A stretch of 43,955 nucleotides of DNA from Mollicutes bacterium (GTDB taxonomy: Bacteria; Bacillota_I; Bacilli_A; Izemoplasmatales; Izemoplasmataceae): NCBI GenBank assembly GCA_003568315.1, contig PWYL01000026.1, forward strand, positions 1-43,955, read 5' to 3'. This document shows, piece after piece, positions 17,237 to 21,621 of the stretch. The first letter of the stretch is position 1. Each line of letters opens with the position of its first letter. Made by a program: the position numbers and the translations under genes. The notes beneath the pieces are model-generated. The model did not search any database and was not told the origin of the DNA. It saw only the letters and a program-made list of their open reading frames with translations.

Positions 17237-17274
17237 GAAAAGACGTTTTCCCGAGGAAATCTTTGGAAAACGTC
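17237..17274 (-). terminator. Terminator of the riboflavin operon
   Basis: On the minus strand GACGTTTTCC pairs with GGAAAACGTC (10 bp) followed by TTTTCG, starting seven bases after the HAD gene stop. Confidence 0.88.
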
Positions 17275-17280
17275 CGCGCT

Positions 17281-17940
17281 TCAAAACACCTTTTGCAGTT
17301 CGGTGATGTCCTCGATGGTGTGATCGGCTTCTTCCAGCTCATCGGAGTCTCCGAAACCGTAACGGGCCGCTATGGTCAAAAGATTGTTCTTGCGCCCCGC
17401 TTCCATGTCATGATGACGATCGCCGACGATGGCCATTCTTTCGGGGAAGTCCTTTTTCACGCGTGCCAAGACGAGATGTTTCGCCTCGATGTCGGCGAAC
17501 GTGTCCGAACAGACCATTCGGTCGAAATAGTCATCCAGGCCGAACACTTTTGCATGGGCGTGCATGTAGTAGTTCTTGCAGTTGCTGATGAAGATGAGTT
17601 TGTAGCCTTTCTTCTTGAGGTCGGAAAGGGTCGCCAACGCGTTGTCGAAAAGACGCGCGTGGCCGTCTTCGACGAGTCTTTGCATTTCTTGACCCAAAAT
17701 GGTCGAGGCTTCGGCCTTGACTTCCTCGGGAAGGTCGGCGCCGAAGATGTCCCACATCTCCTTGGGCGTCATGCCGAGGAATTGGCCGAGTTCCGCATCG
17801 GCCCATCTCTTCTCTTCCAGACCGTGGTTTTCCACCAGATGGCGATAGGCTTTGCGGAAAGCGGGGGCATAGACATGGAGGCTGTCGTGCAGCGTGCCGT
17901 CATAATCGAGAAAGATCGTTTTGATGTCTTTTTTGTCCAT
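17281..17940 (-). CDS. HAD-superfamily phosphatase in the rib operon
   Basis: The 219-aa protein has all four HAD motifs: DYDGT (nucleophile Asp12, Asp14), SNCKN (motif II), a Lys in ARVKKDF (motif III), and GDRHHDMEAG (motif IV). The helical cap sits between motifs I and II, as in phosphoglycolate-phosphatase-like enzymes. Start ATG 17940 is one base past the ribH stop, so it is translationally coupled to riboflavin synthesis. In bacteria the dephosphorylation of 5-amino-6-ribitylamino-uracil 5'-phosphate is done by HAD phosphatases usually encoded elsewhere; this gene is a natural candidate. FMN hydrolysis or general housekeeping are alternatives. Confidence 0.88.
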   Translation of the reverse strand: MDKKDIKTIFLDYDGTLHDSLHVYAPAFRKAYRHLVENHGLEEKRWADAELGQFLGMTPKEMWDIFGADLPEEVKAEASTILGQEMQRLVEDGHARLFDNALATLSDLKKKGYKLIFISNCKNYYMHAHAKVFGLDDYFDRMVCSDTFADIEAKHLVLARVKKDFPERMAIVGDRHHDMEAGRKNNLLTIAARYGFGDSDELEEADHTIEDITELQKVF

Positions 17941-17941
17941 G

Positions 17942-18403
17942 CTACACCGTCTTCATGAGGTTGGCCATCTCGATGGCGGAAAGTGCCGCATCGAAACCCT
18001 TGTTTCCGGCTTTCGTCCCGCTTCTCTCGATCGCCTGTTCAATGGTGTCGGTGGTGAGGACGCCATAGATCACGGGGACGCCCGTTTCCAGCGAGACGCT
18101 CGCGATGCCTTTGGTGACCTCGCTCGCCACATACTCGAAATGGGGGGTGTCCCCGCGGATGACGGCGCCCAGGGTGATGACGGCGTCGAAGTTTCCGCTC
18201 TTGGCGATTTTTTTCGCCACGAGGGGAATCTCGAAAGCGCCCGGAACCCAGGTCACGGCGATGTCGTCTTCTTCCATGCCGTGGCGGGTCAGAGCGTCCA
18301 CGGCTCCACTCAGGAGCTTGCTTCCCAAGAATTCGTTGAAGCGACCGACGATGATGTTCATCTTCAGCCCCTTCGCATCCAGTTTGCCTTCAAACTTTTT
18401 CAT
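17942..18403 (-). CDS. ribH: 6,7-dimethyl-8-ribityllumazine synthase
   Basis: Condenses the ribitylamino-pyrimidinedione with dihydroxybutanone phosphate; 153 aa. Diagnostic blocks are [11 protein letters not shown] (start of the phosphate site), [29 protein letters not shown] with the conserved His, and [14 protein letters not shown] with AGNKG at the end. ATG 18403 overlaps the ribBA stop in TAATG and has AAGGAGGAG upstream; the long open frame further upstream is only antisense or off-frame to ribBA. Expected to assemble into an icosahedral shell, as in the Bacillus enzyme. Confidence 0.97.
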
Positions 18404-19614
18404 TATTCCTTCTCCTCCTTGATATCGATCAGGTGTCCCAACCGATCCCTTTTGGTTTTGAGATAGCGTTTGTTCTTGATGTTGCCGTCCGTTTGCAGCG
18501 GCAAGCGTTCGACAATCTCGAGGCCATACCCCGCGAGACCGCGGATCTTCTTGGGGTTGTTCGTCAGAAGACGGATGCGCCGCACACCCAGATCCCGCAA
18601 TATCTGTGCTCCGATGCCGTAGTCGCGCATGTCGGCGGGAAAGCCCAAAGCCTCGTTCGCCTCGACCGTGTCGAGCCCCCCGTCTTGGAGGTGGTAGGCT
18701 TTGATCTTGTTGATGAGGCCGATGCCCCGGCCTTCTTGGCGCATGTAGAGGAGCACACCCGTGTCTTCTTGCTGTATCCTTCTCATCGCGTTGTCGAGTT
18801 GCTCGCCGCAATCACAACGTTTCGAGCCGAAGGCATCCCCCGTCAGGCACTCGGAATGCACCCGGACGAGAATGTCCGCCCCCTCGTAAATTTCGCCTTT
18901 GACGAGCGCCACATGGTGCTCGCCGCTCAAGGTGTTCTCGTAGCCGACGAGGCGGAATTCCCCGTGTTCGGTGGGAAGCGTGCTTTCCGCCGCCCGCCGC
19001 ACATAGATGTCTTTTTGGCGCCGGTAAGCGATGAGATTGGCGATGGTGACCATCTTCAAGCCGTGTTTTTCGGCGTATTTCTCGAGGTCGGGAACGCGTG
19101 CCATCGAGCCGTCGTCGTTCATGATCTCGCAGATGACGCCCGCGGGCTTGAGCCCGGCGAGACGGGCGAGATCGACAGCGGCCTCGGTGTGTCCGGCGCG
19201 TTTCAGCACGCCGCCCTCCTTGGCGATGAGCGGGAACACGTGCCCGGGTTTTTTGAAGTCGGTGGGCCGCGCTTTGGGGTCGAGGACCTTCTTGATAGTC
19301 TGCGCCCTTTCGTAGGCGCTGATGCCGGTTCTCGTCTCGATGTCGTCAATCGATTCGGTGAAGGCGGTGTGCAACTGGTCGGTCTCGTTGTCGACCATCT
19401 TGTCGATGCCGAGCTGGTTCAGACGGTTTCTCGTCAAGGGCATGCAGATGAGGCCCCGGCCGTGGGTGGCCATGAAATTCACGGCTTTCGGGGTGACTTT
19501 TTCGGCCGCCATGACGAGGTCGCCCTCGTTTTCGCGGTCCTCGTCGTCGACGACAATGACCATCTCGCCATCCTTGATGGCCTTGACAGCTTCCTCTATG
19601 GTATTGAATGGCAT
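18403..19614 (-). CDS. ribBA: Bifunctional DHBP synthase / GTP cyclohydrolase II
   Basis: 403 aa with two fused enzymes. Residues 1 to about 200 form 3,4-dihydroxy-2-butanone-4-phosphate synthase, with [11 protein letters not shown] and the [14 protein letters not shown] block. Residues 205-403 form GTP cyclohydrolase II, with zinc-ligand cysteines in [29 protein letters not shown], and the LLTNNPKKI motif. Both branches of riboflavin precursor supply are thus in one protein. ATG 19614 follows AGGAGTGAG at good spacing; upstream extension has no SD. Confidence 0.97.
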
Positions 19615-19651: not shown

Positions 19652-20296
19652 TTATTGATGGAATCCGTGTCGTTCCAAGAACGCGCGGTCGATTCCCTTG
19701 TCGTTGTTGTCGGCTTTTGTGAGGCTTTCCACATATTTGGCGATGACGTCGCATTCGATGTTCACTTTGTCTTTGGCGCTTTTGGCGATGAGAGTCGTCT
19801 CTTTTTCGGTATGGGGGATGATAGAGACCGTGAAGGCATCCCCTTCCACCTCGACGACGGTGAGGCTGATGCCGTCCACGGCGATGGAGCCTTTGGCAGC
19901 GACATAGCGCATGAGGTTCTTCTCGAGACGGATTGTCACCCGATGGGCGATGTCCGCCCTTTTCTTCTCTACGATCGTGCCGATGCCGTCGACATGGCCG
20001 CTCACGAAGTGTCCGCCCAGACGCGAATCCGCGCGGAGCGCACGTTCGAGATTGACTTCTCCGCCCTTCTTTTGGTCAAAAAGCGTGCTTTTTCGCACGG
20101 TCTCCTCCATGACATCGGCGGTGAAGGTGTTTTTGGTCATGTCCGTGACCGTGAGACAGACGCCGTCCACGGCGATGCTGTCGCCGATGGCAGTCTCTTC
20201 GAGCGCTTTTCGCGCTTCGATCTCCAAACGGAGCGAACGCGGCTTCTTCATCATCTTTTTGATCGTGCCCACCTCTTCGATGATTCCCGTGAACAT
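19652..20296 (-). CDS. ribE: Riboflavin synthase alpha subunit
   Basis: Dismutates two lumazines into riboflavin; 214 aa composed of two homologous lumazine-binding repeats, [10 protein letters not shown] to about 95 and then [13 protein letters not shown] onward. Each has an S-I-VDG-LTV strand ([12 protein letters not shown] and [12 protein letters not shown]). Normal length. The start could be ATG 20299 or 20296; 20296 gives the family start MFTGII and is slightly better spaced from the GGGAGGGG upstream. It overlaps the ribD stop, so the two are coupled. Confidence 0.96.
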
Positions 20297-21396
20297 CATT
20301 TGTCCCCTCCCTTGAAGTCGTATGTGACCATGACATCACCATCGAACGTATCGATGGCAACGAATGTGAGTTTCTCGGCATCCGCGACCTTCGCGACACC
20401 TTCGCCGCCCACGGGGGTGAGTGCCTCGTTCCCCCCGATGATTTTCGGGGCGATGAACAAATGGAGCCTGTCGACGACCCCGGCTTCGATGAGCGAGGCG
20501 TTCAGGAGTGACCCGCCCTCGACGAGGATGCTGTCGATGTTCTCTGCGGCGAGTCTCTTCATGAGCGCGGAAAAATCGATGCCGCCTTCCGTTTCGTCGG
20601 CGAAAAGGAGGCGCGCGCCCTTGCTTTCGAAGCCGGCAAGATTGGCCTTTGGCGCTTTCAGGGTGGTGACGATCCAGGTTGCATGGGAAGCGGCCGTATC
20701 CAAGACTTTCGCTTCCAAAGGAATCTCGCCGTGGGCGTCGACGATGATACGCACGGGCTGACGGCAGCCTTCCTCATGTCTTGCCGTGAGCAGGGGATCG
20801 TCGGCGATGACAGTGTTCGCCCCGACCATCACGGCCGCGAGGCGCGTCCTTAATTCGTGTACGAATCTTCTTGAGGATTCGTTCGTGATCCATTTGGCAT
20901 CGAGTGTTTTTGTTGCGGTCTTGCCGTCGGCGCTCATCGCCGATTTCATCACGATAAAAGGCCTTCTTTCCTTCATAAAATGAAAGAATATCTCGTTGAG
21001 TTTTTGGTTTTTTTCGTCCAGAACGCCCGTCTCGACCTTGATACCGGCTTTTTTCAGCTTTTCCACGCCTTTTTCGGCAACAAGCGGGCTCGGATCCGTC
21101 GAGCCGATGACGACGCGCTCGATGCCGCTTTCGATGATGGCGTCGGCGCAAGGCGGCGTCTTGCCGTGGTGCACACAGGGCTCGAGCGTCACATACATGG
21201 TGGCACCTTTGGCCCTGTTTTTGGCTTTGTTGAGCGCATTCACCTCGGCGTGCGGTTTCCCCGCGGCTTCATGGAAACCTTCGGCGACAATCTCTTTGTC
21301 TTTCACGATGACGGCGCCGACCATGGGATTCGGATTCGTTTTCCCGAGTCCTTTTTTCGCCAGTTCGAGCGCTTTTTCCATATAGTTCCCTTCCAT
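20296..21396 (-). CDS. ribD: Riboflavin biosynthesis deaminase/reductase
   Basis: 366-aa bifunctional enzyme. The N-terminal cytidine-deaminase-like domain (1 to about 145) has HAE (49-51) and PCVHHGKTPPC (Cys74 and Cys83) zinc ligands. The C-terminal dihydrofolate-reductase-like domain (about 146-366) starts RRPFIVMKSAMSADGKTA and contains ILVEGGSLLNASL. The start ATG 21396 matches the family start of the type ME--YM--AL-LA; ATG 21381 has a GAAGGG SD and is the alternative. First gene of the rib operon, directly behind the FMN riboswitch terminator. Confidence 0.96.
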   Translation of the reverse strand: MEGNYMEKALELAKKGLGKTNPNPMVGAVIVKDKEIVAEGFHEAAGKPHAEVNALNKAKNRAKGATMYVTLEPCVHHGKTPPCADAIIESGIERVVIGSTDPSPLVAEKGVEKLKKAGIKVETGVLDEKNQKLNEIFFHFMKERRPFIVMKSAMSADGKTATKTLDAKWITNESSRRFVHELRTRLAAVMVGANTVIADDPLLTARHEEGCRQPVRIIVDAHGEIPLEAKVLDTAASHATWIVTTLKAPKANLAGFESKGARLLFADETEGGIDFSALMKRLAAENIDSILVEGGSLLNASLIEAGVVDRLHLFIAPKIIGGNEALTPVGGEGVAKVADAEKLTFVAIDTFDGDVMVTYDFKGGDK

Positions 21397-21411: not shown

Positions 21412-21455
21412 AAAAACAAAAATGAAAATGCCCCGGATAAACAAATCCAGGGCAT
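21412..21455 (-). terminator. Riboswitch-controlled terminator before ribD
   Basis: On the minus strand ATGCCCTGGAT pairs with ATCCGGGGCAT (11 bp, one G-T) followed by TTTTCATTTTTG, between the FMN aptamer and the ribD SD. This is the expression platform for transcriptional attenuation. Confidence 0.88.
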
Positions 21456-21592: not shown

Positions 21593-21621
21593 ATTATATG
21601 CAAGGAATGTGTCAATGTCAA
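21593..21621 (-). promoter_or_regulatory. Perfect-consensus promoter of the rib operon
   Basis: Minus strand TTGACA (21621-21616), 17-base spacer, TATAAT (21598-21593). Both hexamers match consensus exactly; the start point would fall just before the FMN aptamer. Confidence 0.95.

Follow-up and report, generated by a model that had tools for sequence, protein, structure and literature searches.

In bacterial riboflavin biosynthesis, the dephosphorylation of the RibD product, 5-amino-6-ribitylaminouracil-5'-phosphate (ARPP), is presented in the available excerpts of two papers as the only step for which most organisms have no dedicated enzyme, the haloacid dehalogenase (HAD) phosphatases that serve it being redundant (PMC12051542; PMC13028884). 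According to an excerpt of the first, the HADs that act at this step in B. subtilis, E. coli and Arabidopsis are nonspecific, and the dedicated enzyme of Aquifex is a histidine phosphatase (PMC12051542). The corresponding part of the second agrees on both points and adds that single deletions give no auxotrophy (PMC13028884). Promiscuity is common among HAD phosphatases, many of which hydrolyse FMN (PMC12051542, excerpt). In the accessible portions of two further reports, the mycobacterial enzyme is called unknown (PMC12855090) and, for Bifidobacterium, the step is listed as catalyzed by an "unknown enzyme" (PMC7522473).

In one instance, rib genes in a Mycoplasma were described together with a ycsE-like phosphatase (PMC6965317, excerpt). 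For Acholeplasma laidlawii, a mass-spectrometric ARPP signal was reported along with enzymes for conversions of diaminohydroxyphosphoribosylaminopyrimidine; in the available part of that paper, two tables seem to disagree on the ARPP signal in other species (PMC3942410). A literature search, with most subscription journals outside its scope and some sources available in part, returned neither a dedicated bacterial HAD for the ARPP step nor a HAD encoded in a rib operon, and neither the truncated operon described below nor the rib genes of the Acholeplasmataceae-like group that carries it.

A HAD gene at the end of a rib operon

The stretch of DNA analyzed here, referred to as the window, comprises 43,955 nucleotides from a Mollicutes bacterium with a genome of 1.41 Mb and 96.6% completeness. 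Five genes in the order ribD-ribE-ribBA-ribH-HAD lie together on its minus strand. The deaminase/reductase gene ribD (20296..21396, start codon inferred) was identified by Pfam and TIGR00326 (393.8 bits), and the riboflavin synthase gene ribE (19652..20299) by Pfam and TIGR00187, which scored above its cut-off. Pfam, NCBIfam and motifs support ribBA (18403..19614, start inferred), in which the RibB motif (15 residues) and the RibA motifs are both intact in the alignment, and Pfam and NCBIfam support the lumazine synthase gene ribH (17942..18403). The fifth gene, here proposed to encode an ARPP phosphatase (17281..17940; Pfam match and catalytic motifs), is an open reading frame of 219 amino acids with an ATG start. 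As the preliminary description had stated, it begins one base after ribH, whose TAG stop codon occupies 17944-17942.

The cluster is headed by an FMN riboswitch aptamer (RF00050; 21474..21586, minus strand; 109.6 bits, E 9e-25, gathering threshold 66.2), which bears out the same description. A terminator-like hairpin found by a terminator consensus scan (21428..21455, minus strand) lies in the interval between aptamer and ribD and is a candidate expression platform. Directly 5' of the riboswitch, on the same strand, there is a sigma-70-type promoter-like site, a perfect 12/12 consensus match to TTGACA-17-TATAAT (21593..21621). The HAD gene is probably co-transcribed with ribD, ribE, ribBA and ribH, and the riboswitch would govern its expression, which should fall as FMN accumulates because the gene is co-oriented and nearly contiguous with four rib genes behind a single FMN riboswitch.

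The HAD gene had also been described as the last one before the rib terminator, a claim that stands in part. A 10-bp hairpin followed by UUUU does occur beyond the gene (17242..17274, minus strand; fold z -2.0), and this candidate closing terminator has moderate support and is absent from the consensus terminator scan of the window. Since a PTS EIIC gene on the same strand starts approximately 90 bases 3' of the HAD gene and the hairpin is unlisted in that scan, read-through past the HAD gene is possible, and the end of the transcript is uncertain. Of the 23 stretches fetched from relatives, 11 also have a homolog of this PTS gene (PTS_EIIC_2, PF13303; 16194-17192, minus strand) on the downstream side, at a distance of about 100 bases in some cases and 1-2 kb in others.

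The HAD protein matches PF00702 (69.6 bits, cut-off 26.4, E 5.9e-19) and PF13419 (65.1 bits, cut-off 23.8) and carries the motifs D12xD14GTLH, S119N, K154 and G173DRxxD178. The residues that define the superfamily (DxDGT, S/T, K and GDxxxD), namely D12, D14, S119, K154, G173, D174 and D178, are fixed in all 56 aligned members of its family, as are Y24, M62, W63, N120, R175 and E201, with H18 conserved in 55. In a phylogenetic tree, these 56 proteins are split from 11 other HADs of the same order by a branch with 100/100 support. H18, Y24, M62, W63, R175 and E201 distinguish the family; the 11 other HADs are without them and instead carry V/I at position 18, I/L at 24, T/I at 62, F at 63 and N/T at 175. 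A second HAD encoded in the window genome is only 28% identical to the operon HAD. The AlphaFold model (pLDDT 94.1) has a Gph-like fold with a helical C1 cap, whose predicted helices (21-39, 48-54, 59-64 and 72-91) fall between motifs I and II; its best structural match is 2ah5 (Z 25.4, rmsd 2.2 over 203 residues), and AlnB, the alnumycin P phosphatase, is among the nearest solved structures.

No NCBIfam equivalog reached its cut-off for the window HAD. An identity as phosphoglycolate phosphatase was rejected on the scores of NF009695 (74.2 vs 225 bits) and TIGR01449 (37.7 vs 180), and those of PpaX and YjjG on scores far below the respective cut-offs. Orthology to YigB was likewise set aside, the similarity being confined to a 37-residue local match of 26.6 bits, as was membership of the Cof-type HADs, given that PF08282 was unmatched at E <= 0.001 and that the model has a C1 cap.

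Linkage to riboflavin genes within and beyond close relatives

The preliminary description had taken the proximity to ribH as a functional hint, to be abandoned if the linkage were not conserved. The linkage recurs in relatives and is far beyond chance. A set of 81 genomes (the window genome and 80 relatives) comprised 23 with ribH and 58 without; close orthologs of the HAD were recognized at E <= 7e-47, the next-best HAD in the set scoring 2e-11. Such an ortholog is present in 20/23 ribH-positive and 0/58 ribH-negative genomes. In 19 of the 23 ribH-bearing relatives, and so in all but one of the 20 with an ortholog, the HAD gene follows ribH immediately on the same strand; in the remaining one, G014, the contig stops at ribH and the HAD gene occurs next to tRNA genes on a different contig. 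Genera g8 and g17 contain species with both ribH and the HAD gene and species with neither, as expected if the two were gained or lost together.

Three genomes (G008, G023 and G030) have ribH without the HAD ortholog, so another phosphatase can perform the ARPP step there. No replacement phosphatase adjoining ribH was seen among the open reading frames read in G008 and G030; the neighbourhood in G008 contains a convergent transporter-like frame. In G030, ribH is followed by the gene for an ECF riboflavin transporter S component (PF07155; L072:5266-5784, minus strand), placing synthesis and uptake genes side by side.

A scan of genome contigs confirmed 235 relatives of the HAD, of which the best 80 were kept, so that the counts are biased as a measure of prevalence in Clostridia. 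Among the best 80 of 235 loci, 75 have the HAD gene immediately 3' of ribH (gaps of -3 to 197 bases, median 18), 2 have it directly 3' of ribBA and 3 are without a rib gene in the stretch; all four rib genes fall inside the fetched stretch in 67. When the 16 MAGs shared with the relatives set are removed, the corresponding counts are 60, 2 and 2 of 64. The closest relatives found in this way are "Mollicutes" and "Candidatus Izimaplasma" MAGs, and the families among the best 80 include Clostridiaceae, Lachnospiraceae, Tissierellaceae and Carnobacteriaceae, among others. The hosts in these best 80 loci include Clostridium, Anaerocolumna, Herbinix, Mobilitalea, Tepidibacter, Alkaliphilus, Soehngenia, Alkalibacterium, Trichococcus, Marinilactibacillus and one Spirochaetia MAG. 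An FMN riboswitch was found in all eight ribH-linked loci scanned with Rfam (L090, L106, L129, L136, L138, L149, L153 and L155).

In an even draw of 392 near-complete genomes from the phylum, RibH occurs in 12 and the HAD in 4 of those 12. Thus, the gene is frequent in particular lineages without being universal. The earlier remark that rib operons seldom encode the HAD enzymes of this step fails for this subgroup, although most ribH-bearing genomes of the phylum sample lack the HAD.

At two Eubacteriaceae loci (L131:1585-2250 and L151:5974-6645), a family member is flanked by a uridine-kinase-like gene and cysK. These HADs are 45-46% identical to the window HAD, their genomes are without RibH and RibBA, and a change of substrate is possible. 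At a further locus (L135:6001-6636), the HAD of "Sedimentibacter sp. SX930" is nearly identical in the tree to those of Trichococcus, possibly through a misnamed record or a recent transfer.

Truncated and split operons

Two of the best 80 loci, labeled "Acholeplasmataceae" (L126:498-3912) and "Bacillota" (L154:495-3865), contain ribD-ribBA-HAD without ribE or ribH. The same arrangement, usually headed by a MarR gene and with a degenerate RibB half, was collected from 19 Acholeplasmataceae-like genomes (stretches L189-L207), 18 of them among the 61 genomes of a search around G081 and one (G391) from the phylum sample. These stretches contain ribD in 18/19 (L198 is cut by a contig end), ribBA in 18/19 (L197 is ribD-HAD), the MarR gene in 16/19 and a glutathione peroxidase gene in 14/19; ribE, ribH and an FMN riboswitch were found in 0/19. 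Genome-wide searches with PF00885 (RibH) and PF00677 (RibE) detected neither in 16 of the 19 genomes (controls 14/14 and 11/14). Completeness is 96-99% for four of these genomes, labeled G160, G263, G291 and G391 in the phylum sample, the first three of which match G113, G127 and G132 by coordinates.

In the truncated operons, the RibB half of RibBA appears to be dead and the RibA half intact. In all 16 full-length proteins compared, the RibB motif RENEGD is lost and GHTEA is altered, and the RibA motifs, one of 15 residues and the other RQEGRGIGL, are preserved; the other 2 of the 18 fell short of an 85% coverage rule, L192 because it is in two pieces and L198 because a contig end truncates it. 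Among 77 RibBA rows from full operons, which include duplicates (the window twice and some MAGs twice), RENEGD is intact in 76, with one gapped, and GHTEA in all 77. The RibD motifs are intact in 18/18 truncated-operon proteins compared. In the tree, the 12 truncated-operon HADs included form one group (100/98) among the ribH-linked HADs, as would fit an origin from a rib operon. At other places in the genome, 18 of the 19 have FMN riboswitches; in the four stretches read around them, outside rib clusters (L240, L241, L243 and L246), the one downstream frame that was tested encodes an ECF transporter component, so riboflavin uptake is likely in these bacteria.

A further arrangement is found in G088, G090 and G103, where ribE, an intact ribBA and ribH stand in a row with neither ribD nor the HAD gene in the fetched stretch, and a MarR-ribD-ribBA-HAD operon is on a separate contig. 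An FMN riboswitch directly precedes ribE in G088 and G090; in G103 a contig end cuts the sequence short a little way 5' of ribE. RibD and the HAD stay together, with RibE and RibH elsewhere. Because the truncated and split operons both keep ribD-HAD apart from ribE and ribH, the HAD goes with RibD and not with the flavin end of the pathway.

These gene contents suggest that truncated operons produce 5-amino-6-ribitylaminouracil for a non-flavin purpose. It is somewhat favored that the HAD family marks a second pathway as well, in which this compound is an end product or the precursor of a metabolite other than F420, possibly tied to peroxide stress. 5-Amino-6-ribitylaminouracil is a precursor of MAIT-cell antigens and of F420. 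As a destination, F420/F0 was rejected because CofH is unmatched in 19/19 genomes, with a control over the cut-off in 3/14. Downstream of the truncated operon lie genes for 2Fe-2S proteins, FAD oxidoreductases, 4Fe-4S proteins, BFD and aldehyde dehydrogenase; this cluster was set aside as a pathway part, since it is mostly separated by about 100-180 bases, is absent in some genomes and resembles an amino-acid dehydrogenase cluster. The truncated operons raise the question of how 5-amino-6-ribitylaminouracil is used where its conversion to riboflavin is impossible.

The proposed reaction and its relation to known phosphatases

In nearly all arrangements, the HAD is accompanied by RibD, and usually by RibA as well. 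RibA and RibD convert GTP into ARPP, and this conserved tie to the ARPP-making genes is what a dedicated ARPP phosphatase would show. The main function of the window HAD is very probably that of such an enzyme. It would remove the phosphate from ARPP, the product of RibD, and so supply the substrate of RibH, with Asp12 as the putative phospho-aspartyl residue and Asp14 as the putative acid-base residue, in keeping with the general chemistry of HAD enzymes. The earlier nomination of this gene for the dephosphorylation step is supported by the conserved ribH linkage, and on gene content the truncated operons point to the RibD product over FMN. Weighing against the ARPP role are the L131 and L151 members in genomes without RibH and RibBA, the three ribH genomes without the HAD, the unlinked gene of G014, the frequent promiscuity of HAD phosphatases and the 4/12 occurrence in the phylum sample.

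An operon under an FMN riboswitch would also suit an enzyme that recycles FMN to riboflavin and thereby keeps the riboswitch from closing the operon, and approximately 30% of HAD phosphatases, YigB included, hydrolyse FMN (PMC12051542, excerpt). Such an enzyme would be expected with the riboswitch and the flavin end, whereas the HAD accompanies RibD, which supports ARPP as the substrate: 19 genomes keep it with ribD and/or ribBA but have no riboswitch, ribE or ribH next to it, RibE and RibH are missing altogether from 16 of these, and the split-pathway ribE-ribBA-ribH clusters are without it. FMN phosphatase activity as the main function is considered improbable. A broad housekeeping enzyme for phosphoglycolate, nucleotide or sugar phosphates, hitchhiking in the operon, is slightly more improbable; the nearest folds are indeed Gph-type HADs and the L131 and L151 members would fit, but the scores for phosphoglycolate phosphatase, PpaX and YjjG are far too low, the linkage extends over many families and orthologs are absent from all the ribH-negative genomes in the relatives set.

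The linkage to RibA and RibD is also compatible with damage control, in which the HAD would dispose of the unstable RibA product or of oxidized ARPP and an unlinked phosphatase would carry out the productive step; ARPP (as ARAPDP) is reported to be unstable in oxygen (PMC12051542, excerpt). Under that scheme, however, truncated operons would yield only waste, and a phosphatase linked with RibA and RibD would most simply perform the missing step, which leaves damage control the least probable of the alternatives. With dedicated ARPP dephosphorylation as the preferred reading, a rib-operon HAD conserved across many Bacillota offers concrete proteins to assay and a part for riboflavin production, and the gene can be deleted in culturable hosts such as Clostridium, Anaerocolumna, Trichococcus and Alkalibacterium.

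Among known enzymes, the Gph-type C1 HADs (2ah5, 2hsz and 3mc1) and AlnB (4ex6/4ex7) resemble the HAD model most closely in structure (Z 22.7-25.4 over 203-209 residues), but these proteins are only 22-24% identical to the window HAD, which does not reach the phosphoglycolate phosphatase cut-offs. YcsE, YitU and YwtE of B. subtilis and YbjI of E. coli are HAD phosphatases with reported activity on ARPP, the substrate proposed here. These are Cof-type HADs with a C2 cap and a PF08282 match, and the window HAD, with its predicted C1 cap and no PF08282 match (E 0.001), is set apart from YcsE and YbjI by that family assignment. The HFP of Aquifex aeolicus shares with the window HAD a proposed role as dedicated ARPP phosphatase (PMC12051542, excerpt), yet it belongs to the histidine phosphatase superfamily, whose fold is unrelated to the HAD sequence and predicted fold of the window protein. 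E. coli YigB, described as nonspecific in an excerpt of PMC12051542, is like the window HAD a member of the HAD superfamily for which the same reaction is proposed, and its D12, D14 and GD...D motifs align. It differs from the family at H18, Y24, M62, W63, R175 and E201 and, unlike the window HAD gene, yigB lies outside rib operons, in the order dapF-yigA-xerC-yigB-uvrD.
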